From a virus, in IMG/VR virus record IMGVR_UViG_3300021963_000229, positions 1 through 44,180 of that record: DNA of 44,180 nt; one strand, written 5' to 3'. Under the pieces are notes generated by a model. That model worked only from the letters and a program-made list of their open reading frames with translations, did not search any database and was not told the DNA's origin. Position 1 is the stretch's first letter; every line of letters starts with the position of its first letter. Below, piece after piece: positions 3 through 43,279 of this stretch. The position numbers and the translations under genes were made by a program.

Positions 3-1238
3 GACAAGGCTGAAGCCGAATTAGATGCACGCGTTAAAGCCGCTGTTGCCTCTATCTCTACTGGTGACACAGGTGCTGAGCGCTTGATGGCCGAAGTTGA
101 GAAGCGTTTGGAAAAAGCTGAAGAGTCTAGCAAATCAGTTATCGCTGGTTTAGAGGCTGCTTTAAAAGAGAAAGCGTCTGAAATCGAAGCAATCACAAAA
201 TCTAAAATGTCTTTCCAAGAAGCCAAAGACGGTATGTCTTATGCTGACAAAGAAAAGGCAGTTTTATTGTCTAAAATGGCTGGCAAGTCTGTTGACGGTA
301 CACGTACTGGTCGCGACTTAGTGCAAAAATACGGTGCTCACGTGCCTTCAGCTACATGGGAACTCGAAGTTTCTTTGAATCTTGAGTCTGAAGTTCGTCG
401 TCGTTTGGTTGTTGCTCCAGTGTTCCGTAACATTGCTATGCAAACCAACGTGATGACAATCCCAGTGAACCCAGAAGCAGGTACTGCAACTTGGGTTACT
501 AACGCTGACTTTGGCGCCGTTCCTGCTACCCTTGGTGCAGCTGGTGCTTCTGCTGGTAACACTGCTACTCACGCTCTCAAAGAAATCACTTTGAATGCTT
601 ATAAACTTGCTACAAACGAGTATACAGCATACGAAGAAGAAGAAGATGCTTTGTTGGCTTTGATGCCAATCATCCGTGATGGTATGGTTCGTCGTGTTGC
701 TCGCGCCGTTGACAAGGCCTTCTTGTTAGGTGCTGGTTCTGGTTCTGACCCTGTTAAGGGCTTGGCTAACTGGGCTTCCAACACCACTGCTACTGGTAAC
801 ACTGTTGCTGCTGGCATGAACGTTGCTAAGTTACGCACATTGCGTCAAGGTTTGGGTGCTTGGGGTCTGGATCCCGCAGAAGTAGTTTATATCATTAATA
901 CTGATACATACTACCAGTTGCTGGAAGACACAACCTTCCAAACAATGAACCAAGTTGGTACACAAGCTACATTGTTGACTGGTCAAATCGGTCAAATCGG
1001 TGGTAGCCCAGTGTTAGTTTCTGCAGAATTCGCTTCACCAGGTACTGGTATTGCTGGCGCTATCTGCTTGAACCCAGGCAACTTTATCGTTGGTAACCAG
1101 CGCGGTCTCCGCATTGATACCCAAGAATTAGTTGAGACACAACGTCGTGTTATGGTGGCTAGCCTCCGTACCGGTATGACACGTGTTACTACTAACTTAG
1201 GTAACGCTGTTACAGCACACAAGTACACAGCAACCTGA
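3..1238 (+). CDS. Major capsid protein, HK97 fold (5' end cut by window edge)
   Basis: Shell-forming capsid subunit. The frame is open to the left edge (first full codon at base 3), so the real start lies upstream. The ATG at 87 and TTG at 84 are internal. The visible 411 residues begin with about 90 charged, Ala/Glu/Lys-rich residues predicted to be coiled coil, as in the delta (scaffolding) domain of HK97-type capsids that the maturation protease removes. An HK97-like body follows, with E-x-x-x-R-R-R and a P-V-N-P-E strand region near the middle and a C-terminal beta-rich part. Codons are dominated by GCT, GGT, GTT, CGT and AAC, unlike the AT-richer neighbours, which suits very high expression. 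A terminator follows directly. The fold is inferred from sequence pattern and gene order. Confidence 0.9.
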   Translation, partial: DKAEAELDARVKAAVASISTGDTGAERLMAEVEKRLEKAEESSKSVIAGLEAALKEKASEIEAITKSKMSFQEAKDGMSYADKEKAVLLSKMAGKSVDGTRTGRDLVQKYGAHVPSATWELEVSLNLESEVRRRLVVAPVFRNIAMQTNVMTIPVNPEAGTATWVTNADFGAVPATLGAAGASAGNTATHALKEITLNAYKLATNEYTAYEEEEDALLALMPIIRDGMVRRVARAVDKAFLLGAGSGSDPVKGLANWASNTTATGNTVAAGMNVAKLRTLRQGLGAWGLDPAEVVYIINTDTYYQLLEDTTFQTMNQVGTQATLLTGQIGQIGGSPVLVSAEFASPGTGIAGAICLNPGNFIVGNQRGLRIDTQELVETQRRVMVASLRTGMTRVTTNLGNAVTAHKYTAT

Positions 1239-5027: not shown

Positions 5028-5438
5028 ATGTCTGAAATTTCTTTAAAATCCCTTTTAGTTCCTAGTAAATCTGTTGAAGTTGAATATCCCGGCATGCCAG
5101 GTTTCAAAGTTAATCTTGCGTTTTTAAGCCGTGAAACATTGCTTAATATTCGTAAGAAGTCAACAAAAACTTCCTTTAAAAATCGTCAAGCTGCCGAAGA
5201 GTTTAATGAAGACTTGTTCTTACAACTCTATGTTGAAGCTGCCGTTAAAGGTTGGACAGGACTTAAAATGTCTTATCTTGAGCAACTTGCCCCAGTTGAT
5301 TTAACTGGACAAAAGCCAGACGATGAACTAGGCTTTACAGCTGAAAATGCACTGTACTTGATGAAAAACTCAAGTAACTTTGATGGCTTCATTAGCGAAC
5401 AGGTCTCAGACTTGGGAAACTTTTCGAAGAGCAACTAA
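5028..5438 (+). CDS. Tail assembly chaperone, zero-frame product (lambda G-like)
   Basis: A 136-residue protein with a beta-rich N-terminus and a helical, acidic C-terminus (F-N-E-D-L-F-L-Q-L-Y-V-E-A-A-V-K-G-W). It lies between tail tube and tape measure, where long-tailed phages encode a pair of chaperones that coat the tape measure during tail assembly. The gene ends six codons after an in-frame slippery heptamer at 5414-5420. A fraction of ribosomes should shift to frame -1 and make the longer G-T-like product. Similarity to lambda gpG is by position and architecture, not by residues I can align. Confidence 0.75.
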   Translation: MSEISLKSLLVPSKSVEVEYPGMPGFKVNLAFLSRETLLNIRKKSTKTSFKNRQAAEEFNEDLFLQLYVEAAVKGWTGLKMSYLEQLAPVDLTGQKPDDELGFTAENALYLMKNSSNFDGFISEQVSDLGNFSKSN

Positions 5439-5458
5439 GTCACGTTACTAGGTTGCTC
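5414..5458 (+). promoter_or_regulatory. Programmed -1 ribosomal frameshift site
   Basis: The heptamer G-GGA-AAC (5414-5420) is in the right phase (codons GGA 5415-5417, AAC 5418-5420) for simultaneous -1 slippage. After an 8-base spacer, GAGCAAC (5429-5435) pairs perfectly with GTTGCTC (5452-5458); AGT/ACT can add a short inner stem. The zero-frame stop (5436-5438) lies in the hairpin loop. Slippage joins the upstream frame to the open frame ending at 5806, giving about 259 residues. This is the classic arrangement of lambda-like G/GT genes. Confidence 0.88.
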
Positions 5459-5806
5459 ACAAACTATATGCAAAATAGCAGTGTTGCAATGACCAAAGAA
5501 GCATACTTTGAAATGTGCGCGGCTTTAGGTAATGAACCTGCAGAAGATGAAATTCCAGTTGAGTTTGAAGACTTTCCACTGGAAGTTCAACAAGCACTAA
5601 TTGCGTATAGGATGCTTCGAGATGAGTGGGATAGCATGAATGGCATTTACTTAGGTAAATCACTGATTGGTATTTCAGAAGTTTTGGAAGCTACAGAAAT
5701 TGATCTTGAAGACAGAAAGTTTATAACTATGCTTGTTCGCACAATAGATGGTGTAAGAATACAAGAGATCAATAATAAACAAAAAACTGAAAAGCCCGCT
5801 AAGTAA
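5420..5806 (+). CDS. Frameshift extension of the tail assembly chaperone (T domain)
   Basis: This stretch is open in the -1 frame from the slippery site to the TAA at 5804-5806 and adds about 128 residues after the shift (reading L-F-E-E-Q-L-S-H-V-T-R-L-L-T-N). It has no good start codon or ribosome binding site of its own. The TTG at 5453 lies inside the frameshift hairpin. The product is acidic and helical, with a Lys-rich tail. By analogy with lambda GT, this domain should bind tail tube subunits while the shared N-terminal domain binds the tape measure. Its last codons form part of the terminator stem at 5790-5823. Confidence 0.82.
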   Translation, partial: LFEEQLSHVTRLLTNYMQNSSVAMTKEAYFEMCAALGNEPAEDEIPVEFEDFPLEVQQALIAYRMLRDEWDSMNGIYLGKSLIGISEVLEATEIDLEDRKFITMLVRTIDGVRIQEINNKQKTEKPAK

Positions 5807-5823
5807 TTTAGTGGGCTTTTTTA
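5790..5823 (+). terminator. Rho-independent terminator overlapping the chaperone stop codon
   Basis: AAAAGCCCGCTAA (5790-5802) pairs with TTAGTGGGCTTTT (5808-5820) with one G-U pair and a 5-base loop, followed by TTT. The chaperone stop codon is in the loop. It separates the head/tube transcript from the tape measure promoter 20 bases downstream. Confidence 0.85.
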
Positions 5824-5842
5824 TGCTTTAAAATTTTATGTA

Positions 5843-5871
5843 TTGACAATTTTGACCATATGTGCTATAAT
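5843..5871 (+). promoter_or_regulatory. Consensus sigma70 promoter for the tail operon
   Basis: A perfect TTGACA (5843-5848), a 17-base spacer and a perfect TATAAT (5866-5871), with a TG one base upstream of the -10 (extended -10). Transcription should start near 5878, about 58 bases before the tape measure ATG. It directly follows a terminator. A near-twin lies at 22246-22274. Confidence 0.88.
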
Positions 5872-5935
5872 GGTCCTAATGAAAAATATCTAAATTTTTT
5901 AATAATGCCACTTAACCATTCAAGGAGGGGGCTTA

Positions 5936-8900
5936 ATGACAAAAGTAACTGTAGGCTTTGAGCTAAAAGACGCGACAAAGTCGGTTGACGGAGTAGACGC
6001 CTCTGGTAAGCGTTTAAATAAGACTCTTGAACGTACTCAAGAGCTGATGAAGGGTACAAAAGGCGGATCAAAAGCAGCTAATGCGGCCTTTCAACAAACA
6101 GAATATAACACAGCTCGTGGTACTATTGGTACTGGTGCTGGAGGTCGTGACTTTGCTAAGCAATCACGTGAACTAGATGGCTTAGTTCGCTTATACGCTG
6201 TGTATGCTGCTAATATCTTTGCCGCAGGTGCTGCTTTCCGCGCACTCAGCGAAGCTATGGATACAACAAACATGATACAAGGCTTAAACCAACTCGGCGC
6301 TGCTAGCGGTGTAGCAATGGGTGGGTTAGCTAAACGATTCTCAGAGGCCAGCGGTGGAGCAATTAGCTTACGCGAGTCTATGGAAGCAACAGCCAAGGCT
6401 GTGTCTAGCGGATTATCCCAAGCACAGTTTTTAAAGCTGGGTGATGTTGCCAAGAAAGCATCTCAAGCACTGGGTGTTAACATGTCGGATGCTGTTAGTC
6501 GTTTGACTCGTGGTATTACAAAGCTTGAGCCTGAGCTTTTAGATGAATTGGGTATTTTTACTAAAGTTGGTAAAGCTACTGAAGATTATGCGCGTGCTAT
6601 TGGTAAGCCCGTTAGTGCGCTAACAGACTTTGAAAAACGCCAAGCTTTTGCTAATGCAGTACTTGAAGAAGGTGCAAAGAAGTTTGGACAGATCGATATT
6701 CCTACTAATCCTTATGACAAGTTATTGGCTACATTAAAGAATGTAGCGCAAGCTGGATTAGAAATTGTAAACAACGTACTTGCACCGTTTGCTAAATTGT
6801 TATCCAACAACACAGGTTTATTGGTAGGTGTTATAGGCTTAATTGGCGCTAAAATTGTCAAAGACGCTCTGCCTGCTATTGGGCAGTGGAGAACAGGCTT
6901 AAAAGACGCAGCAGATGAGGCTCGTAAGCGTAGTTCAGATATTGCTGCAAGTTTTGGTGAAGGCTTTGTTGAGCGCACTAATGCGGCATTTAAAGTCCCA
7001 CAACTAGAAGCGAACTTAAAGAAATCAGAAGAAGCGTACCGTGCTAGTCGTACTAAAATGGCTGCAATGGATACCGACCTTTCTAAGAAACTGCTCAAAG
7101 GCGGTGCAGGAACAGATGACAGAGCTTTAAGATCAGAACAAACACGATATACTAAAGAGATTAATGTTTTAAGACGTCAAGGCTTAGACATAAATAATGC
7201 TCAAATTTTAGCTCTTGAAAAAGAGCGAGCAGTAATTATTTCTTTACGTGGAGACATGAAAGCACTTAATGCTGCTCAAGACGCGGCATTAAGCAAAGCA
7301 AGCGGTGGTAGTATATTTGAAAGAGTCGGTGACTACTTACGTACTAGTGCTGCTAAAGGTGCTCGTGACAAAGCTACACGTTTAGACATACTAAGTGATG
7401 TAAGTAAAAATCAAAGAGAACAAGGATTTGGACCTGCCTTTGATATCATGATGAAAGATCTTGATAAACTACCTGGTAAGTTCCAAAAAGTACGTACAGG
7501 TATAGCCGGTATTGTTATTGCTGGAGCAGGTTCAATAGGTACAGCCGCAGCAGGCTTAAGCAGATTTTTAGGTCCAGTAGGTATCGGTTTAGGTATATTA
7601 CAAGCTGCACTACCACTATTCCGAAACAATGAAGAAGCAGCCGCACGTTTCTCAGGCTCACTTGATTTATTAAAAGAAAATTCAGAAAATGCGTTCCGCG
7701 TACTGGAAAGACTCAGCAAGCTAGATCCTCTAGAGCGTATCTCTGTAGACAATATATTTGCTAAAGGAACAGCCCTTGAAAGCTTAGGCGGAAGTATGTC
7801 TAAGGCATTTACGGATATTGAAACAGAAATAAAAACTCGTAACTGGGCGGACAGTACCACTAATTTCTTAGCAAGTATTATAGGTCGTAGTTCAGAACAA
7901 CTATTAGCTAAACAAGTTGGCAATACAATTGAGCGAGCTGTAAAGTTGTCGGCTAATGGTCCTAACGGTAAAGCTGTTCAGGAAGAACTAGCAAACTTAC
8001 TAAAGTTACCTGCTAATGCTACTACAAAAGGAATTACTGACGCTTTAAATACAGCTAGCCCTGCGGTACAGCAAGCTGCTGCTAAAATAATAGAAGATGC
8101 TGGTAAAAAGGCTGTAGCTTCTGCAGGTTCTCTTAAAACTTTTAAACAAAGTTTGGCCGAGAGTGCAAAGGTTTATCAAGATTTAGTAAATACCACAAAA
8201 AATTCTACTCCACTAACGAAGTTTGCAGAAGATAGTTCTAAACAAATTATAGAACTATCAAAAACACTAGCTAGTGCTGAGTTGCCTGAAAAACTAAGTG
8301 CTCTCAATGATTTATCTAAAGATATTAACTTCTTACAGCTATTTCCCGTAGAAGCAGCACGTAATATCTTATCAACTTCAAACGAATTAAATACTCTTAC
8401 TGTAGAATTAGCAGAAGTAGAACGTAGACAGACTCTATACAATGACGCTTTAAATGAGCAACAAATTATTTTAGATAAATATGCTGGCCGTCGTAGACAA
8501 AGTCTTACTGGCAACGAAGCTAAAGAATTCGAAAACGCTAAAGATGCTATTAATCGTCTGAATAATTTAAACGTTGGGGTACAGGCTACAAGAAGCAGTA
8601 TTGCTGCCTCGCTACAGGGTGCGTCAATAAAGTTTGCAGATTCTATGAAAGCGGGTTTAATAGCTAATATTGACACTTTCACAAGAGGTTTAGTGGAAGC
8701 AGCAGCAAGAGCACGACTCGAAATTCAAAAAGTAGCTTCAGCTGGTATTACTGATCCTAGATTAAAAGCAAGCTATCAAACAGGTCTTGATTTAAAAGGA
8801 CTTGAATTAGATCGTCAAATGCTAAAATCACAAATGGATTTAATTGACTCTAATGCTGAGTTGCGTTTAGCTATAATGGAAAATACTTTTGCTTCAGGTT

Positions 8901-36019: not shown

Positions 36020-36952
36020 ATGACATTTCTAAATAGAGTTTCTTCTCAGGTTATACTAGCTCCCCCTACAGGCGGTGCAACCGGCCCTGCTTATGTAGCA
36101 CCTCCAGGACAAGCCCTATTTGGCACCAATGTAGGTGCGGGTACTTTTACCTGGACTGTGCCCAAAGGTGTTACAACCATCAGTGCTGTAGCTATTGGTG
36201 GTGGTGGAGGTGGCCCCTATATCTGGGCATATCCAGGAGGATGTGGTGGTGGATTAGGTTGGAGAAATAATATTCAAGTTCAACCTGGCGGAAGTGTAAC
36301 CGTAGTAGTAGGTGCTGGAGGTGGACACTGGAGTTTTGGTGCTAGCAACGGTGGCGAAAGCTACGTAGTTAATACTAGCGTTGTGCGAGCCGGTGGTGGT
36401 GCAGCAGGCGACAACGGTTTTGCACAATATGGTACTTATACTGGTGATGGCGGAGGCAATGGCGGAACTACTGGTTTCTTTGCATCTCCGGGCGGCGGGG
36501 CCGGTGGATACACTGGTGCTGGTGGCAACGGAGGTAGTCCAAGTTTTGGTTTTGGTGGTGGCGGAGGTTGTTTTTATAGCAGCTTTGCCGGAAGCGGAAG
36601 CGGTGGCGGAACTGGTTTACGAGGCACTCAAGTTCCACCAGACGGGTTTGGCTCAGCCACTGTTTACTTTTACAGCCCCTATAGTGGTTATACTAGTTAT
36701 ACTGGTTTTGGTAATGGTGGCGGTGGCGGTGCTGGCGGCGGAGTAAGTGGTCAACTAGGTCAAAGTCCTTGGACTAGTTTTGGTCCTAACGGTCAATATA
36801 CTGTAGGCGGCAACTATGGTGGTGGTGCGGGAGGTAGCGGTACCCACGGATTTAATGGATATACTGGTGGGAATGGTGCTCAGGGTGGTTGTCGTATTAT
36901 TTGGGGTAAAGGCAGAGAGTTTCCTGGTACTTTAACGGATGATATTAGTTAA
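36020..36952 (+). CDS. Glycine-rich adhesin-like protein
   Basis: A 310-residue protein, about one third Gly. The N-terminal part (Q-A-L-F-G-T-N-V-G-A-G-T-F-T-W-T-V-P-K-G-V-T) is the start of the widespread glycine-rich phage/bacterial domain. After it come runs of G-G-G-G-G spaced by Tyr, Phe and Ser loops (e.g. residues 60-80, 150-195, 230-250). Such spacing resembles the polyglycine-helix adhesins (gp38 type) that tip some T-even fibres, with variable loops between Gly sections that contact the receptor. Here the resemblance is by composition only. It is followed directly by an assembly chaperone-like gene. Confidence 0.65.
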   Translation: MTFLNRVSSQVILAPPTGGATGPAYVAPPGQALFGTNVGAGTFTWTVPKGVTTISAVAIGGGGGGPYIWAYPGGCGGGLGWRNNIQVQPGGSVTVVVGAGGGHWSFGASNGGESYVVNTSVVRAGGGAAGDNGFAQYGTYTGDGGGNGGTTGFFASPGGGAGGYTGAGGNGGSPSFGFGGGGGCFYSSFAGSGSGGGTGLRGTQVPPDGFGSATVYFYSPYSGYTSYTGFGNGGGGGAGGGVSGQLGQSPWTSFGPNGQYTVGGNYGGGAGGSGTHGFNGYTGGNGAQGGCRIIWGKGREFPGTLTDDIS

Positions 36953-36963
36953 TTAAATAAAAC

Positions 36964-37449
36964 ATGAAATTATATATTAAATTAGACGGAAGTGGTGGTG
37001 TTATAAATCATCCAATGCAATTTGATTCTGCGCAAGTAAGCGTAAGCTTTGTTCTAAACAAAGAAGCTGAGCTGGTAACTGAAGAAGAAATATTAGCAAA
37101 TTATTTTGCAATTTTTGAAAATCCTGTACTTGATATTGCTGAAGAAGTTATTGGGGATAATGGATATAAACAGTTACCCAACGGTAATTGGACTAAAGAT
37201 TATATCTTAAAACAACTAACTCAACAAGAAAAAGTTGATAAATGGGTTCGCGGTTTACGTGACCATAGGTTATATATTAGCGACTGGTCACAGCTAGTAG
37301 ATAATGAGCTTACTGAAGCAGAACGCACAAAATGGACAGAGTATCGGCACTATTTAAGAAAAATGCCAGAAATCTATGCAGATGTCAATCATCCCGAGGA
37401 AGTAGTATGGCCCGAACCTCCATTACGAAAACCACTACCCAAAGTCTAA
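36964..37449 (+). CDS. Tail fibre assembly chaperone-like protein, copy 2
   Basis: A 161-residue protein. The C-terminal half (V-R-G-L-R-D-H-R-L-Y-I-S-D-W-S-Q-L-V-D, then A-E-R-T-K-W-T-E-Y-R-H-Y-L-R-K-M-P) is the PF16778-like tail assembly chaperone signature and is closer to the family consensus than the copy at 32979. The N-terminal half is a beta domain with N-H-P-M. It sits after the Gly-rich adhesin and is the likely helper for it. No clear Shine-Dalgarno precedes its ATG (upstream is AT-only). Its stop is one base from the heme oxygenase ATG. Confidence 0.75.
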   Translation: MKLYIKLDGSGGVINHPMQFDSAQVSVSFVLNKEAELVTEEEILANYFAIFENPVLDIAEEVIGDNGYKQLPNGNWTKDYILKQLTQQEKVDKWVRGLRDHRLYISDWSQLVDNELTEAERTKWTEYRHYLRKMPEIYADVNHPEEVVWPEPPLRKPLPKV

Positions 37450-37450
37450 A

Positions 37451-37987
37451 ATGACTACATTAAAAGACTTAACTCATGAAATTCATGAACAAGCAGAGTC
37501 TCACCCATTTACTAAACTAGTTTTATCAAAAAATATCTCTAATCAAGTATATGGGGACTTTCTATATAATCAACACGCAGTATACCATACACTGGAAACA
37601 GTGGCTGGTGTGCGCGGATTATTAATAGACTTGCCAGGATTATGTAGAACAGATTTAATCAGACAAGATTTAGATGATTTAAACATAACAACAGTTAAAC
37701 TATATGCTAGTACCCACAAGTATACACACTATGTGGCTTGTAACTTAACCGATCATCAACTATTAGCCCACTTATATGTCCGACACATGGGCGATATGTA
37801 CGGTGGTCAAATGATTAAAAAGTGTGTTCCTGGTCGCGGTCGTATGTATGATTTTGAAAATCGTTCTGATTTAATAGCAGCACTACGCAGCAAACTAGAT
37901 ACATCAATGGCTTCAGAAGCTATCCATTGTTTTGGTTATGCTATACAATTATTCACAGAGTTAGCTAATGAGCACAATATTCAGTAA
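37451..37987 (+). CDS. ho1: Heme oxygenase (biliverdin-forming)
   Basis: A 178-residue protein. Family reaction: heme plus O2 and reductant to biliverdin IX-alpha, CO and Fe2+, in the cytoplasm. Visible features: proximal heme ligand His12 in E-I-H-E-Q-A-E (like E-V-H-T-Q-A-E of HO-1) and the distal-helix motif G-D-M-Y-G-G-Q at 114-120 with Asp115 and Gly118/119 where canonical enzymes have G-D-L-S-G-G. Tyr-rich helices lie between. It is short next to cyanobacterial HO1 (about 240) but near bacterial HemO size, and has no membrane anchor. No clear Shine-Dalgarno precedes ATG 37451, so translation probably depends on coupling to the chaperone gene one base upstream. The bilin reductase start lies inside its last 20 bases, so the two work in sequence. 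Confidence 0.9.
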   Translation: MTTLKDLTHEIHEQAESHPFTKLVLSKNISNQVYGDFLYNQHAVYHTLETVAGVRGLLIDLPGLCRTDLIRQDLDDLNITTVKLYASTHKYTHYVACNLTDHQLLAHLYVRHMGDMYGGQMIKKCVPGRGRMYDFENRSDLIAALRSKLDTSMASEAIHCFGYAIQLFTELANEHNIQ

Positions 37988-38654
37988 ACTAAAAGCTCAT
38001 GCACAAGAGTTGGAATCAATTCTTGCTGCACGAGCTTTTCCTTTGCCAACAGAGTATGACTCTGGATGGTATACAAAGAATTTTTCAAGCGCTTGGATTC
38101 GACGCGGTAACTTAGATGTTATAGACGTAAGCGAATCCAAAAAGCTTTATATGATGCACTTGTGTATATTCCCGCACGTTTACGATGCAGCCCCAATTTA
38201 CGGCTTCGACATTGTAGCAGGAACAAACAAAATCACAGGAGCATTTTTAGATTTTTCACCTACAGGCGACCCTGAGCATCCTATGTGCAAATGGTTTCAA
38301 GAGTTTGTAGAGCCAACCTCGTGGGCAAAACCCCGAGAATTGCCAGAGTGGGCAAGAAATATATTTTCAAACCGCATGGTTGCTGCTGGAAATATTAATA
38401 CTGATTTTGAACTAAGTGTAATCTTAGAGATTTCAAAGAAGTCTTTGCTGTATTATTTGGACAACATAAAAAAATATCGTCCAGCGTTAAAATACGAAGA
38501 TATGGTAGCACAGAATAATTTTACCAAAAAACAAAATTATTACTGTCAGCAACAAAAATGTAATCCACATACTCCCAGAGTATTGAAAACACTAGGATTT
38601 GAAGATGATCAAGTACATGAGTACATACATAAAGAACTATTTCCTGAAGTATGA
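37968..38654 (+). CDS. Ferredoxin-dependent bilin reductase (PcyA/PcyX/PebS family)
   Basis: A 228-residue protein (PcyA about 248, PebS about 233). The family reduces biliverdin with electrons from ferredoxin. The core motif M-M-H-L-C-I-F-P-H at 62-70, then P-I-Y-G-F-D-I-V at 76-83 and F-L-D-F-S-P at 93-98, aligns by hand with PcyA: His64 to PcyA His88 and Asp81 to PcyA Asp105. The PcyA Glu76 position seems to be Asp53 or shifted. The C-terminal block (N-P-H-T-P-R-V-L near 199-206, then H-E-Y-I-H-K-E-L-F) has Pro-His where N-D-K-T is usual, so the second catalytic Asp is not visible. These changes fit a phage PcyX-like branch, but the product (phycoerythrobilin, phycocyanobilin or a dihydro-bilin) cannot be read from sequence. 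No ferredoxin gene is in the window. Confidence 0.9.
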   Translation: MSTIFSKLKAHAQELESILAARAFPLPTEYDSGWYTKNFSSAWIRRGNLDVIDVSESKKLYMMHLCIFPHVYDAAPIYGFDIVAGTNKITGAFLDFSPTGDPEHPMCKWFQEFVEPTSWAKPRELPEWARNIFSNRMVAAGNINTDFELSVILEISKKSLLYYLDNIKKYRPALKYEDMVAQNNFTKKQNYYCQQQKCNPHTPRVLKTLGFEDDQVHEYIHKELFPEV

Positions 38655-38699: not shown

Positions 38700-39119
38700 A
38701 TGTGGATTTTACAATTTTTACCAAACTGGATATTTTACGTATTATGTTTTGCAGGCGTAGCGGCATTTTTAATTACTAAATTTGTTAAAATATTACCTAA
38801 TGCACAACTAATTCAAGCTGCAAGCGTTGCAGTAGTTTTGTTTAGCATTTATATGATAGGTGCTATATCAAACAATGATGCGTGGTTAGCCCGTGTTAAA
38901 GAAATGGAAGCAAAAGTAGCTGAAGCAGAAGCCAAATCGGCTACAGCAAACACTGATATTGTAGAAAAGACTGTTATAAAAACTCAAGTTATCAAAGAAC
39001 GTGGTCAAGACATAGTAAAGTATGTAGATCGTGAAGTTGTTAAATATGATACAACTTGTATAGTTCCCAAAGAGTTTGTAGCAGCACATAATAAAGCAGC
39101 AGAGGCACCAAAGAAATGA
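38700..39119 (+). CDS. Two-TM membrane protein with coiled coil, candidate i-spanin (possibly with holin role)
   Basis: A 139-residue protein, preceded by a G-rich site (GGGGGA, 38686-38691). Two membrane segments (about 4-28 and 37-56) are followed by a Glu/Ala/Lys coiled coil (62-105) and a Lys/Pro tail. The next gene is an o-spanin-like lipoprotein overlapping by 4 bases, then an endolysin, so the i-spanin role (joining inner and outer membranes at lysis) is likely. A classic i-spanin has one TM. With two, both ends would have to be periplasmic. No separate holin is evident in the cassette, so this gene might supply part of that role. That is speculation. Confidence 0.65.
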   Translation: MWILQFLPNWIFYVLCFAGVAAFLITKFVKILPNAQLIQAASVAVVLFSIYMIGAISNNDAWLARVKEMEAKVAEAEAKSATANTDIVEKTVIKTQVIKERGQDIVKYVDREVVKYDTTCIVPKEFVAAHNKAAEAPKK

Positions 39120-39382
39120 AATTATTAGCTATTGCACTAGTTTTATTACTAAGTGCTTGTTCCACAACTGTACCAGTTACAGCAAAATTTCCAGCAGCTC
39201 CAGGTACATTAGTACAAGAGCCATGCCCTGACCTTAAAAAACTTGCGGACGATGTTAAACTATCGGATGTAGCAAAAACTGTAACAGTTAACTATTCGGA
39301 ATACTATATGTGTGCTGTTAAGCTAGAAGCATGGCAACGTTGGTATCGTGAACAGAAAACCATTTATGAAAGTTTGAAATAA
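39116..39382 (+). CDS. Outer-membrane lipoprotein, candidate o-spanin
   Basis: An 88-residue protein whose signal sequence ends in L-L-L-S-A-C-S, a lipobox with the lipidated Cys at 15. Ser16 at +2 predicts transport to the outer membrane. The mature part begins with Thr/Val/Pro-rich sequence, as in Rz1-type o-spanins, and ends in a Trp/Tyr/Lys helix that could meet the partner's coiled coil. It overlaps the upstream membrane gene by 4 bases and its stop overlaps the endolysin ATG by one, forming a compact lysis cassette. Two further Cys (E-P-C-P, M-C-A-V) are unusual and could form a disulfide. Confidence 0.78.
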   Translation: MKLLAIALVLLLSACSTTVPVTAKFPAAPGTLVQEPCPDLKKLADDVKLSDVAKTVTVNYSEYYMCAVKLEAWQRWYREQKTIYESLK

Positions 39383-39996
39383 TGGAACTAACCCTCGATC
39401 AACTAAAACAAATTGTTGAAAAGAATCCTTATATAGAATACTGGCACAAAGCATTAGTTCAGTTATTGCCAGAATATGAAATTAATACTCCGCAACGTAT
39501 GGCTGCTTTTTTAGCACAATGCGCACACGAGTCAGGCGGGTTCAAAGCAATCAAAGAGAATTTAAACTATCGTGCAGTTACCCTACGTAAGATTTTTGGA
39601 AAATACTTTCCAACAGACGAGATGGCGGCACAGTATGCAAACAAACCCGAAGCAATTGCCAATTTAGTTTATGCTAATCGTATGGGCAACGGAGGTCCAG
39701 AAACAGGAGACGGATATCGTTACTGCGGTCGAGGTCTTATTCAACTCACTGGCAAAGACAACTACTTTTGGTTTGCAGCCAGCTTACAAATCACACCTGA
39801 AGAAGCTTCACAGTACATGGAAACTTTTGAAGGGGCGGCCCAATCAGCATGCTGGTTCTGGGAAACTAACAACTTAAATCAGTGGGCGGATAAAGACGAT
39901 ATCCTAACACTAACTAAACGTATCAACGGCGGTACTATCGGATTAGAAGATCGTAAAAAACATTATGAACATGCCAAGCATGTATTAGGAGCGTAA
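39382..39996 (+). CDS. Endolysin, glycoside hydrolase family 19 (chitinase-like muramidase)
   Basis: A 204-residue single-domain enzyme that cuts peptidoglycan glycan strands at lysis. Catalytic Glu50 in A-H-E-S-G-G-F, then the substrate-cleft motif Y-C-G-R-G-L-I-Q-L-T-G-K at 114-125, and I-N-G-G-T-I-G-L at 181-188, all in the order and spacing of phage GH19 endolysins. No signal peptide or SAR segment, so it needs a membrane lesion to reach the wall. No separate cell-wall binding domain. It follows the o-spanin gene with a one-base overlap. Confidence 0.92.
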   Translation: MELTLDQLKQIVEKNPYIEYWHKALVQLLPEYEINTPQRMAAFLAQCAHESGGFKAIKENLNYRAVTLRKIFGKYFPTDEMAAQYANKPEAIANLVYANRMGNGGPETGDGYRYCGRGLIQLTGKDNYFWFAASLQITPEEASQYMETFEGAAQSACWFWETNNLNQWADKDDILTLTKRINGGTIGLEDRKKHYEHAKHVLGA

Positions 39997-39997
39997 T

Positions 39998-41113
39998 ATG
40001 GTTAAAAAGGTTTTAGCAGGCTTATTAGTCTTTGCAATAAGTAGTGTGGGTGCTCAAACCCTAATTAATCAAGGAACATACGATTCCAAAACACTAGTGG
40101 ATACTAATTCCACTAGTGTTTCTACCTCAACAGTCAATTCCAATTCTAATACTACTAGCAATTCGAATGCAACTAGTACTTCAACAGTTAATAGTACTAG
40201 TACAAATACTAACAACAACAATAATACAAGTACTAGTACGAATACAAATAACAATGTTCAGAGTGGAACAGTAACCAACAATAACAATAATGTTATGTCG
40301 GGAACAGTTACCTACAACAATAATAATGTTAATTCGGGTACAATGACTTACAACAACAACAATGTAAGTACATCAGTAAATACTAATAATAACATTAATT
40401 CAGGCACGATGACTTACAACAATAATAATGTAAATACATCGACCGCAACAAATAACAATAATAATGTTAACACTGGTGATATGACTAATCGTAATATCAA
40501 TACTAGTACATCAACTTCGACTAACAATAATATTCAGTCAGGGTCAATGACTAATATTAATCAAAATACTTCAACTGCGGTATCTACAAATACCAATGTT
40601 AACCAAAACACAAACGCCAACACTAATATTAATCAGAATATTAATAGTGGCGAAGTAACTAATCGTAATATCAACGAATCGATTATTACACAAAAAGTTA
40701 TTCAGCCTCCTCCAACAGCAGTCGCGCCCACAATGATGAGTGGCGGAAATGCTGATTTGTGCTCCACAGGCACATCAGGCTCAGTACAGACACAAATCTT
40801 TGGCGTCTCAGGTGGTGGAACTACCCGCGACTTAAACTGTGAACGACTCAAGCTATCAAAAACATTATTTGACATGGGCATGAAAGTTGCAGCAGTTGCT
40901 ACAATGTGTCAAGATCGTCGCGTGTTTGATGCCATGTTGGCTGCTGGCACACCTTGCCCTTATGAAGGCAAAATCGGCGAGCAAGCAAAACTTGCATGGG
41001 AAGCAAATGCTGATAAAGTACCTAAACTTGACAAGTTGGAGAAAATAGATGATACTACTAAGAAAATTGGTATTGGTGCTTTGTTGGGCGTGCTGGTTCA
41101 CAAACTCTTCTAA
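39998..41113 (+). CDS. Secreted Asn/Thr/Ser-rich repeat protein
   Basis: A 371-residue protein with AGGAG upstream. Residues 1-19/20 are a Sec signal peptide (V-K-K, hydrophobic core, S-S-V-G-A-Q). Residues ~28-235 are almost only Asn, Thr, Ser, Val and Gly, with runs of four or five Asn and recurring N-S-G-T-M-T-Y-N-N-N-N-V units. Residues ~245-345 form a compact domain with four Cys (D-L-C, L-N-C-E-R-L-K-L, A-T-M-C-Q-D-R-R-V-F-D-A-M, G-T-P-C-P). It ends with a small hydrophobic stretch (I-G-I-G-A-L-L-G-V-L-V). I have seen the Cys domain pattern in other aquatic phage proteins of unknown function. It may be exported to the envelope or be a fibrous virion protein. Function unknown. Confidence 0.75.
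   Translation: MVKKVLAGLLVFAISSVGAQTLINQGTYDSKTLVDTNSTSVSTSTVNSNSNTTSNSNATSTSTVNSTSTNTNNNNNTSTSTNTNNNVQSGTVTNNNNNVMSGTVTYNNNNVNSGTMTYNNNNVSTSVNTNNNINSGTMTYNNNNVNTSTATNNNNNVNTGDMTNRNINTSTSTSTNNNIQSGSMTNINQNTSTAVSTNTNVNQNTNANTNINQNINSGEVTNRNINESIITQKVIQPPPTAVAPTMMSGGNADLCSTGTSGSVQTQIFGVSGGGTTRDLNCERLKLSKTLFDMGMKVAAVATMCQDRRVFDAMLAAGTPCPYEGKIGEQAKLAWEANADKVPKLDKLEKIDDTTKKIGIGALLGVLVHKLF
40130..40680 (+). repeat. AAT/AAC-rich low-complexity tract coding for poly-Asn repeats
   Basis: Degenerate repeats of AAC/AAT codons mixed with ACT/AGT units. The closest copies are near 40290-40440, where a unit of roughly 39-48 bases recurs with few changes. Such a tract can expand or contract by slippage or recombination, and it could confuse short-read assembly. 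Confidence 0.7.
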
Positions 41114-42713
41114 TGCACAAACTATAGATACAACAGGCAATGTTGTAAACAACAATCAATGGAATAACGCAGTATATCAAAATCAATTAACCTGTTGGGG
41201 ATATGGAGATCCTGGATACTGCGGACCTAATCCAATAGTACGTCCGGGTGGTAATATAAACTTTAGTTACGGTACTGCAGACTTATATCAAATTAAGTCA
41301 ATTGCTAGCATACTGCCTAATTCAGGAACTGGTCTACAAGTTAGTGGATTTAATTTTGGATTTACTGCTAAAAATGGCAATGGCTGGGACGATGGCAGAC
41401 AAGATTACTTAAGTGCATACGTAACACTTTATAATAAAACTGGTGGAGTAGCTGCCAACTATGATTATACTCAGTATACCAATCAAAGATATAATTGGAC
41501 TCAATTTAATTTTTCAGAAACGTTTACAACACCATATGCAGTACCTGAGCTATCAAATGTCCGTTATGGATTAATTGGTCGGGATAATAACTTTTGGGCA
41601 GGACCGTACGGGCCTGAAGTGTACGGGGTTAATTTCTCACTAAAGTATAGCGTAGACCCTTGTTCAACCAATGTTTATTACAGTACAAGTTGCAGTGGAT
41701 ACTTTGATGCACTAGCTAAATTAGCGCCAGCATCTACCACAAATACTACTTTAGCATATACGCCGCCACCTGATAGTCCTGAACCACCTACACCACCTCC
41801 TGGTGAAAACGGTGGAACACAACCTCAACAAGGGCTACCTCCACCTCCTGGAGCACCGCTTCCACCAGGCCAAGCCCCACAACAACAAGCTAGTCAACAA
41901 ACTGCACCCGCAGCAACACAAGCTAGTCCACAAGAAAAGTCTAGTGGTGGAGCATCAAACGTAGGCTTTGCACTATCCCTAATAGCCAAGAATTCAGAGC
42001 GTGAAAAAGCAGTGGCACAACAAGTAGTGGCTACTGCAGAGTCTCAAGCTCAAGCAGCAGGTGATAGAGCACAACAAACTGCAACGGCTACTGCAAGCGC
42101 AGCAGTAGCACAAAGCACCGCAAGCATGGACAGTGGTTTTTCAGGAACAGGTATTCAGGCCTCCAACTCTAGCAGCCGCAGCAGTGTAGGCTTAGTAGCT
42201 ATGCAACAGCAGTCTAGTTCAACAACACTGCTAAGCGCTCAGAGTTTTATAACAACAACTAGTCAGCAAAATACTGGACCCCAACTTGTAGCACCTGCGA
42301 CATTTGAGCAAATACAAAGTACGCAAAATTACTCAATATTTGCTGTACAGGAATATCGTCAGCAAGAATCCGAGCAGATCACGCAAACTGTGAACTTTTT
42401 AACTGACTTAAATAGTCCACTCAAGCAAATACTTGATGCTCAACAGTTTCAACAGGCTAGCACAGACGCGCCGCCGCAAACACAACGTCGTGACACCACT
42501 CCCAACGAATTGGCAGTAGGTGTTAATATAGCACAAATGGCAACACAGCCACAAGGTTATGGTAATTATTTAAATCTTGTATTACGTGATGCAAGTTTTT
42601 ACGAACCCAAGGAAGTTTATCGAAATCAAACAGTTATCGATAATGTAAGAGTTTTACGCGGTTTAGGGTCGGATCAAAAGCATCAAGACTTAGTAAACCT
42701 GCAATACAAATAG
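41049..42713 (+). CDS. Secreted Pro/Gln/Ala-rich protein with overlapping signal peptide
   Basis: A 554-residue protein starting inside the previous gene: GGAG (41038-41041) is 7 bases before ATG 41049, and residues 1-24 form a Sec signal peptide (L-L-R-K-L-V-L-V-L-C-W-A-C-W, cleavage after S-N-A). The 65 overlapping bases code the hydrophobic tail of the upstream protein in one frame and this signal peptide in the other. Residues 25-225 form an aromatic, Gly-rich beta domain. Next is a Pro-rich hinge (about 230-285), an Ala/Gln/Ser helical region (about 290-400) and a Gln-rich C-terminal domain with A-S-F-Y-E-P-K-E-V-Y. No family recognised. Probably works with the neighbour at or beyond the inner membrane. 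Confidence 0.75.
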   Translation: MILLRKLVLVLCWACWFTNSSNAQTIDTTGNVVNNNQWNNAVYQNQLTCWGYGDPGYCGPNPIVRPGGNINFSYGTADLYQIKSIASILPNSGTGLQVSGFNFGFTAKNGNGWDDGRQDYLSAYVTLYNKTGGVAANYDYTQYTNQRYNWTQFNFSETFTTPYAVPELSNVRYGLIGRDNNFWAGPYGPEVYGVNFSLKYSVDPCSTNVYYSTSCSGYFDALAKLAPASTTNTTLAYTPPPDSPEPPTPPPGENGGTQPQQGLPPPPGAPLPPGQAPQQQASQQTAPAATQASPQEKSSGGASNVGFALSLIAKNSEREKAVAQQVVATAESQAQAAGDRAQQTATATASAAVAQSTASMDSGFSGTGIQASNSSSRSSVGLVAMQQQSSSTTLLSAQSFITTTSQQNTGPQLVAPATFEQIQSTQNYSIFAVQEYRQQESEQITQTVNFLTDLNSPLKQILDAQQFQQASTDAPPQTQRRDTTPNELAVGVNIAQMATQPQGYGNYLNLVLRDASFYEPKEVYRNQTVIDNVRVLRGLGSDQKHQDLVNLQYK

Positions 42714-42721
42714 GAGTTAGT

Positions 42722-43279
42722 ATGGCAGAAGATTTAAACAAAAAAGTTGAAGAACTAGAAGCTGCAGCTAAAAAATATGCATCAAAAGATACTGTTATTA
42801 GCGTTGGCGGATATGAATTTACACCTGCTAAACTAATGGTAGCTGCTACTATTGTAAGTTCTACCCTAGGCGGTTTGTATGGTACTTTTGAAGTATACAA
42901 AGATTACATGGGTATGAAGAAAAAAATTGCTGAATACATTACTCCAGACTTGTCAGAGTTTGATAAGCGTTTAGCAGTAATTGAGCAGAATTCAGCTAAA
43001 ACTGCTGACTATACCCGTGACATTAAAGTTGACTTAAAAAACGACTTGCGTAGAAATGAAACTGTTACTGAAACAATTGAGCGATCAGTAAAACAATCGC
43101 AACGTGAAATCGACACAGACTTAAAAACAATTCAAAAAGATTTGCGTGCTAGTTTAGATCGTACTCGTGACGATATGGAAAAACTAAAACGTGATACCGA
43201 TTCCAGGCTTGATAAGTTAAATCGGGAAGTAGACTCAAAAATACAAAAAGCTATTGATAACCCATTGGCCAACAAGTAA
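42722..43279 (+). CDS. Membrane-anchored coiled-coil protein
   Basis: A 185-residue protein with TAGGAG overlapping the previous stop. The N-terminus is charged, a hydrophobic stretch lies near residues 37-58 (A-K-L-M-V-A-A-T-I-V-S-S-T-L-G-G-L-Y-G), and the remaining ~120 residues are a continuous Lys/Asp/Glu/Arg coiled coil. It may span the inner membrane with a long rod. No enzyme motif. Its stop overlaps the ATG of the next small gene. Function unknown; the context is a run of secreted and membrane proteins after the lysis cassette. Confidence 0.75.
   Translation: MAEDLNKKVEELEAAAKKYASKDTVISVGGYEFTPAKLMVAATIVSSTLGGLYGTFEVYKDYMGMKKKIAEYITPDLSEFDKRLAVIEQNSAKTADYTRDIKVDLKNDLRRNETVTETIERSVKQSQREIDTDLKTIQKDLRASLDRTRDDMEKLKRDTDSRLDKLNREVDSKIQKAIDNPLANK

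Follow-up and report, generated by a model that had tools for sequence, protein, structure and literature searches.

A candidate heme-to-bilin gene pair of the hemO-pcyX type in a T5-like siphovirus and its relatives among phages

The purpose of a heme oxygenase and a bilin reductase in phages of non-photosynthetic bacteria has been called "still enigmatic" (PMC11480375). The question is raised anew by a viral record fragment of 44,180 bases (IMGVR_UViG_3300021963_000229; the window, meaning the whole stretch analyzed), in which a first-pass annotation made from the sequence had picked out two overlapping genes for consecutive steps from heme to a reduced bilin. Both genes lie on the plus strand, the heme oxygenase (HO) at 37451-37987 (178 aa, a compact core) and a PcyX-type ferredoxin-dependent bilin reductase (FDBR) at 37968-38654 (228 aa). 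They share 20 bases (37968-37987), an overlap that may couple their translation. Directly 5' of HO is the gene for a tail-fibre assembly chaperone (36964-37449, plus strand; Pfam PF16778, 1e-12), whose TAA stop codon occupies 37447-37449, with the HO start one base further. On the 3' side, also on the plus strand, follow genes for an Rz-like inner spanin (38700-39119; PHROG phrog_4952, 9.3e-11, with weak matches to phrog_2536 and phrog_312), a lipoprotein-like outer spanin (39116-39382; PHROG phrog_456 and phrog_812, Rz-like spanin) and an endolysin (39382-39996; PHROG phrog_181, 7.6e-75). The two reading frames, their overlap, the fibre-chaperone and lysis-gene flanks and all motifs named in the first-pass annotation were recovered in this analysis. 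The late expression that it had also proposed gained no such support; gene position is its sole basis, and a promoter scan gave matches no commoner than in shuffled sequences. A search with a defence library matched neither HO nor FDBR.

The identity of the two enzymes was examined by profile searches, comparison with solved structures and structure prediction. HO matched Pfam Heme_oxygenase (PF01126; 3.8e-17, 63.2 bits against a cut-off of 23), had solved HO structures among its relatives, and gave an AlphaFold model (pLDDT 95.9) for which Foldseek returned HmuO, HO-1 and HO-2. FDBR matched Pfam Fe_bilin_red (PF05996; 1.4e-18, 67.8 bits against a cut-off of 31). Its best solved match was PcyX_EBK42635 (5owg) at 1e-52, compared with about 1e-10 for PcyA, and Foldseek analysis of its AlphaFold model (pLDDT 89, pTM 0.89) returned FDBRs of the PcyX and PcyA types, again with 5owg at the top. 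HO carries His12, the motif G114-D115-x-x-G118-G119 and Arg146, with H12, D115, G118 and G119 invariant across 27 phage HOs. FDBR carries H64-x-C66-x-F68-P69 and F80-D81-I-V; H64 (His88 of PcyA) and D81 (Asp105 of PcyA) were present in all 127 phage FDBRs compared. By profile, fold and motifs, the window HO is predicted to be complete and of the HO-1 type, and the catalytic residues of both enzymes appear intact. The consecutive-step enzymes proposed at first pass are therefore borne out by profiles, solved relatives and predicted folds alike; with both Pfam scores above their cut-offs and both folds of the HO or FDBR type, nothing in these searches spoke against them, and we regard the enzyme identity of the pair as close to certain.

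The class of the reductase was assessed from diagnostic residues and phylogeny. D50 of the window FDBR aligns with the PcyX-specific Asp55, where PcyA has Glu76; an Asp occupied this position in 126 of 127 phage FDBRs and a Glu in all PcyA references. N199, kept in 125 of the 127, aligns with Asn219 of PcyA and not with Asp206 of PebS. Trees built against a reference set without alphaproteobacterial PcyA, CB_2 and pre-PcyA placed all phage FDBRs and 5owg in one clade, apart from the PcyA, PebA, PebB and PebS references, with modest support (FastTree 0.79; UFBoot 66); the kinship with PcyX suggested at first pass is supported. Identity with PcyA was ruled out by D50 at the Glu76 position and by the NCBIfam PcyA equivalog, against which the window FDBR scored 88 bits, below the cut-off of 206. 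Identity with PebS was rejected on N199 and H64, whereas PebS of P-SSM2 has Asp206 and, at the His88 position, an Asn. Taken together, the PcyX-type residues, the tree placement and the missed PcyA cut-off lead to phycoerythrobilin (PEB) as the predicted product, which we consider the likelier outcome without regarding it as secure. One residue tempers this prediction. The window FDBR has N48 at the position of PcyA His74, an Asn found in its own subclade (26 of 127 phage FDBRs), and in PcyA, His74 contacts the water network of the active site (PMC9800206). Because most PcyX, like PcyA, have His at this position, the product of the window enzyme may differ.

The window holds mostly structural genes; those for capsid, head-tail and tail proteins have their matches in T5-like phages. 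For the major capsid protein (84-1238, plus strand; Pfam PF05065), the best matches came from T5-like phages, at about 31%; most of these phages are 105-122 kb long. Pfam T5_p143 was also matched in the window, and the C-terminal domain of the tape measure is of the lambda type. A complete relative, G001 (contig of L004; 99,690 bases, terminal repeat of 105 bases), is about 83% identical to the window over 17.9 kb, the pair included. The capsid matches, T5_p143 and this 99.6-kb relative point to a T5-like phage, and the lambda-like siphovirus of the first-pass annotation was rejected. Among the T5-like relatives we also observed genes for a Dps mini-ferritin with all four ferroxidase residues (L081:4242-4676 in G001; L313, L316, L317 and L312); the Dps gene of G001 lies about 5 kb from the cassette.

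Evidence on the host came from tmRNAs and from searches for photosynthesis genes. No tRNA or tmRNA was found in the window. Two-piece tmRNAs were present in 13 of 27 related records; nine matched Rfam beta_tmRNA best within its clan, that of the T5-like G002 included, and G003 and G786 gave marginal alpha_tmRNA matches. A tmRNA may mislead on the host, because phage Melnitz infects OM43 though its tmRNA is of the alphaproteobacterial type (PMC9004378). Neither psbA nor hli was matched in 20-27 related records, complete G001 included; no ferredoxin was found in these records or in the window, with phage Mosig as the sole exception; and no phycobiliprotein scored above cut-off in the related records, G001 included. 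Phycobiliprotein-like PF00502 domains in G789 and G790 fell below cut-off, lay inside giant fibre-like proteins and were taken as chance. With its two-piece, beta-type tmRNAs, this group of phages very probably has a host other than a cyanobacterium, as the first-pass annotation had supposed, and the negative searches, one complete genome among them, agree with its remark that no photosynthesis gene is in view. The host is probably a heterotrophic proteobacterium, beta likelier than alpha, and a betaproteobacterium is a reasonably good expectation. The tmRNA tag ANDS[QRH]FALAA was also considered as a host clue; it occurred only in two Alcaligenaceae, Jezberella and Paralcaligenes; both have one-piece tmRNAs and were dismissed as the source. 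Six loci (L292, L293, L294, L295, L297 and L298, about 1410-1925 each) hold two-piece tmRNAs with a beta_tmRNA Rfam match and predicted tags of 23-30 residues, compared with about 10 (for example ANASTFEYFTVEGFTADNGLVAA); tags of this length may be genuine or may reflect a misplaced boundary in the ARAGORN prediction.

To determine the spread of the pair, viral contigs were scanned using three queries: the FDBR of the window, an alignment of FDBRs and an alignment of HOs. This analysis revealed 216 loci representing 129 distinct cassettes, and the alignment scans of one collection confirmed at least 587 and at least 595 relatives. HO lay directly 5' of FDBR in 210 of the 216 loci, and the remaining six end at contig ends. 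Loci retrieved with HO as bait (the best 80 HO loci) showed equal pairing, and no HO without an FDBR was found among the nearest HO relatives sampled. The two genes overlapped, or were separated by a gap within 60 bases, in 193 of the 210 paired loci. Among window-related lysis regions with at least 9 kb upstream, the pair was within reach in 6 of 47, a lower bound, as some carriers have the pair more than 10 kb away; the pair is an accessory module. Within the reach of the search patterns, 84,980 bacterial and archaeal genomes yielded no PcyX relative, and none of 398 Pseudomonadota had an FDBR of any type.

Both genes are under purifying selection, with median dN/dS values of 0.108 for HO and 0.080 for FDBR (85 pairs in which both genes were unsaturated), values that make FDBR no less constrained than HO. 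At larger distance HO was the more diverged gene; identity between the window and G002 was 53% for HO versus 88% for FDBR, at similar synonymous divergence. An FDBR pS below 0.5 accompanied an HO pS above 0.6 in 42 pairs, and the reverse was seen in 11. Because the synonymous distances of the two genes differ in some pairs, recombination also plays a part; selection does not fully account for the high FDBR identity as its sole cause, and the histories of FDBR and HO partly differ.

The genomic settings of the 129 distinct cassettes were diverse. T5-like spanin/endolysin genes adjoined 29 cassettes, T4-like neck genes 27 and fibre genes only 43, while 21 lay directly 3' of genes for DnaK, Hsp20 and ClpS, most of them followed by CsgF/CsgG/curlin-type genes. 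The HO-PcyX pair is spread over T5-like, T4-like and jumbo phages, and in one lineage it lies in a DnaK-Hsp20-ClpS stress operon. L280:2610-8063 and about 20 similar loci (among them L287, L261 and L200) belong to this single large-phage lineage, with DnaK-Hsp20-ClpS followed by HO-FDBR; to our knowledge, a bilin module in a stress-chaperone operon has not been described before. In the window, a glycine-rich fibre protein is encoded 5' of the pair (36020-36952). Such proteins, together with fibre chaperones, recur at this place in related loci of different phage types, which suggests that the pair often inserts in the fibre region.

PcyX was reportedly characterised from marine viral DNA. The window FDBR shares with PcyX_EBK42635 (5owg), of the marine viral hemO-pcyX system, a single-polypeptide form, the PcyX aspartate, the catalytic His and Asp and the fold, but it is clearly diverged, belongs to a subclade with Asn at the PcyA His74 position and is set in a T5-like siphovirus. 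PebS and PcyA of cyanophages P-SSM2 and P-SSM4 share the enzyme superfamily and the heme-to-bilin logic; they fall on other FDBR branches, have cyanobacterial hosts and are accompanied by photosynthesis genes. Pelagibacter phage Mosig EXVC030M (MT647606), with a non-photosynthetic host, likewise has adjacent, overlapping HO and FDBR genes, their products 36% (HO) and 43% (FDBR) identical to those of the window. In contrast to the window phage, Mosig is a T4-like myovirus with a putative ferrochelatase and a ferredoxin, neither of which was seen in the window. In the Mosig locus (L001, 3488-8573), HO and FDBR lie near the putative ferrochelatase and several 2OG-Fe(II) oxygenases, such that one phage has both heme-making and heme-breaking genes.

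The HO-PcyX arrangement of the window is also that of the hemO-pcyX cassette of Wegner et al. 2024; in that study, phages from marine and fresh waters had hemO-pcyA/X together with valaS or close to it, and non-photosynthetic hosts were proposed for some of them (PMC11480375). The CB_2 cassette from that study resembles the window in its aquatic phage, its HO and FDBR and its proposed non-photosynthetic host. The CB_2 reductase lacks the PcyX aspartate and proved to be a true PcyA, and valaS is present (PMC11480375), whereas the window FDBR has the aspartate. A three-gene valaS-hemO-pcyA/X cassette was rejected for our phages, as alaS (TIGR01821) had no match in 21 related records, complete G001 included, or beside the pair in the window, itself a fragment. 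As the first-pass annotation had stated, such pairs are known; hemO-pcyX cassettes in aquatic phages, the PcyX class and carriers with non-photosynthetic hosts are published (PMC11480375), and Mosig has the pair. New here are the T5-like siphovirus carrier, its relatives without alaS and the His74-to-Asn subclade; how broad the family is, how strictly its two genes are paired and their association with DnaK-Hsp20-ClpS are likewise new.

As a whole, the evidence is best explained by a functional heme-to-bilin module of the known hemO-pcyX type, located in the late part of a T5-like siphovirus genome, a reading that we consider probable. Heme oxygenases convert heme to biliverdin IXalpha, iron and CO, and bilin reduction from biliverdin through 15,16-dihydrobiliverdin (DHBV) to PEB with ferredoxin electrons is established biochemistry. 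Judging from their position, the window genes would be transcribed late in infection. HO would open heme to biliverdin IXalpha with release of iron and CO, and FDBR would reduce biliverdin, most likely by way of 15,16-DHBV to PEB, with ferredoxin of the host as the presumed electron donor (none encoded by the phage was found). Because the host is probably a heterotrophic proteobacterium, this product would not serve a phycobilisome.

A role in photosynthesis is unlikely on other grounds as well. If the host were a cyanobacterium, the pair could sustain phycobilisomes or light harvesting, as cyanophage PebS, PcyA and HO are thought to do, and the N-terminus of the tail fibre is 29-33% identical to cyanophage fibres. 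This reading is strongly disfavoured by the lack of psbA, hli and ferredoxin in 20-27 related records that include a complete genome, by tmRNAs that fit beta_tmRNA and not cyano_tmRNA, by a nearest pair-carrying isolate that infects Pelagibacter, and by an FDBR of the PcyX type instead of cyanophage PcyA or PebS. Scarcely more probable is that destruction of heme, or production of CO, halts host respiration just before lysis. The pair does adjoin spanin and endolysin genes in the window, but this adjacency is not conserved, other carriers having neck, fibre or DnaK-Hsp20-ClpS genes instead; release of CO does not need FDBR, and related phages have heme-building genes (the Mosig ferrochelatase; alaS in PMC11480375). 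The bilin could instead be the chromophore of a host phytochrome-like protein or a bilin-binding globin and alter signalling. FDBR conservation suggests that the product itself matters, HO and PcyA of CB_2 were able to load a phytochrome in E. coli (PMC11480375), and bilin-binding globins accompany bacterial pre-PcyA clusters (PMC10151467). We nevertheless consider this improbable, given that no recurrent bilin-binding partner gene stands beside the pair (PF00502 matches were below cut-off), that signalling would have little time to act from a late gene position, and that the absence of FDBR from the 398 Pseudomonadota indicates hosts not adapted to phycobilins.

A serious rival, though still rather unlikely, is the proposal that iron supply is the aim, with HO freeing heme iron for phage and host iron enzymes and FDBR merely disposing of biliverdin. 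HO chemistry does release iron, 2OG-Fe(II) oxygenase genes lie near many cassettes (in L270 between HO and FDBR), Dps mini-ferritin is encoded in G001, G003, G004, G005, G006 and G010, with the four ferroxidase residues in those aligned, and the idea has been put forward before (PMC11480375). However, many phages that lack the pair also have Dps, and a control scan that found the cassette at only 1 of 80 Dps loci (10-kb flanks) ruled out Dps as its specific iron partner. Mosig, moreover, pairs HO with a putative ferrochelatase, an iron user. Iron or CO alone would need HO only, so that loss of FDBR would be expected now and then; none was seen in the sample, and the constraint on FDBR is no weaker than that on HO.

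Wide spread, at least four genomic settings, no splitting in the sample and purifying selection together argue that selection keeps the reduced bilin and not just heme breakdown. For the heme-to-bilin module we tentatively propose that the benefit is completed heme turnover giving both iron and a reduced bilin. On biochemical reasoning, removal of biliverdin would pull HO forward; FDBR would clear biliverdin and keep HO turning over, and heme would be dismantled fully in late infection, leaving usable iron and a reduced antioxidant bilin. More speculatively still, phage-made reduced bilins may have a conserved, non-light-harvesting job in non-photosynthetic cells, for example in limiting oxidative, light or protein damage during infection. 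A pair this widespread (at least 580 relatives in one collection), in at least four settings, bears on the enigmatic purpose of such genes (PMC11480375), and betaproteobacterial and pelagibacterial systems are where the question of what the bilin is for can be tested.

Further genes were observed around the cassettes. In L270 the gene between HO and FDBR (5429-5974) encodes a 2OG-Fe(II) oxygenase (PF13640), and related oxygenases are encoded just 5' of HO in many other cassettes. In the window, the endolysin gene is followed by genes for a repeat protein rich in Asn/Ser/Thr that looks secreted and curlin-like (39998-41113; phrog_20531, without a Pfam match), a secreted-looking 554-aa protein (41049-42713) and a 185-aa protein (42722-43279). 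The latter two have close relatives in G003, and the whole block (39998-43279) is missing in G001 between the endolysin and the next gene.
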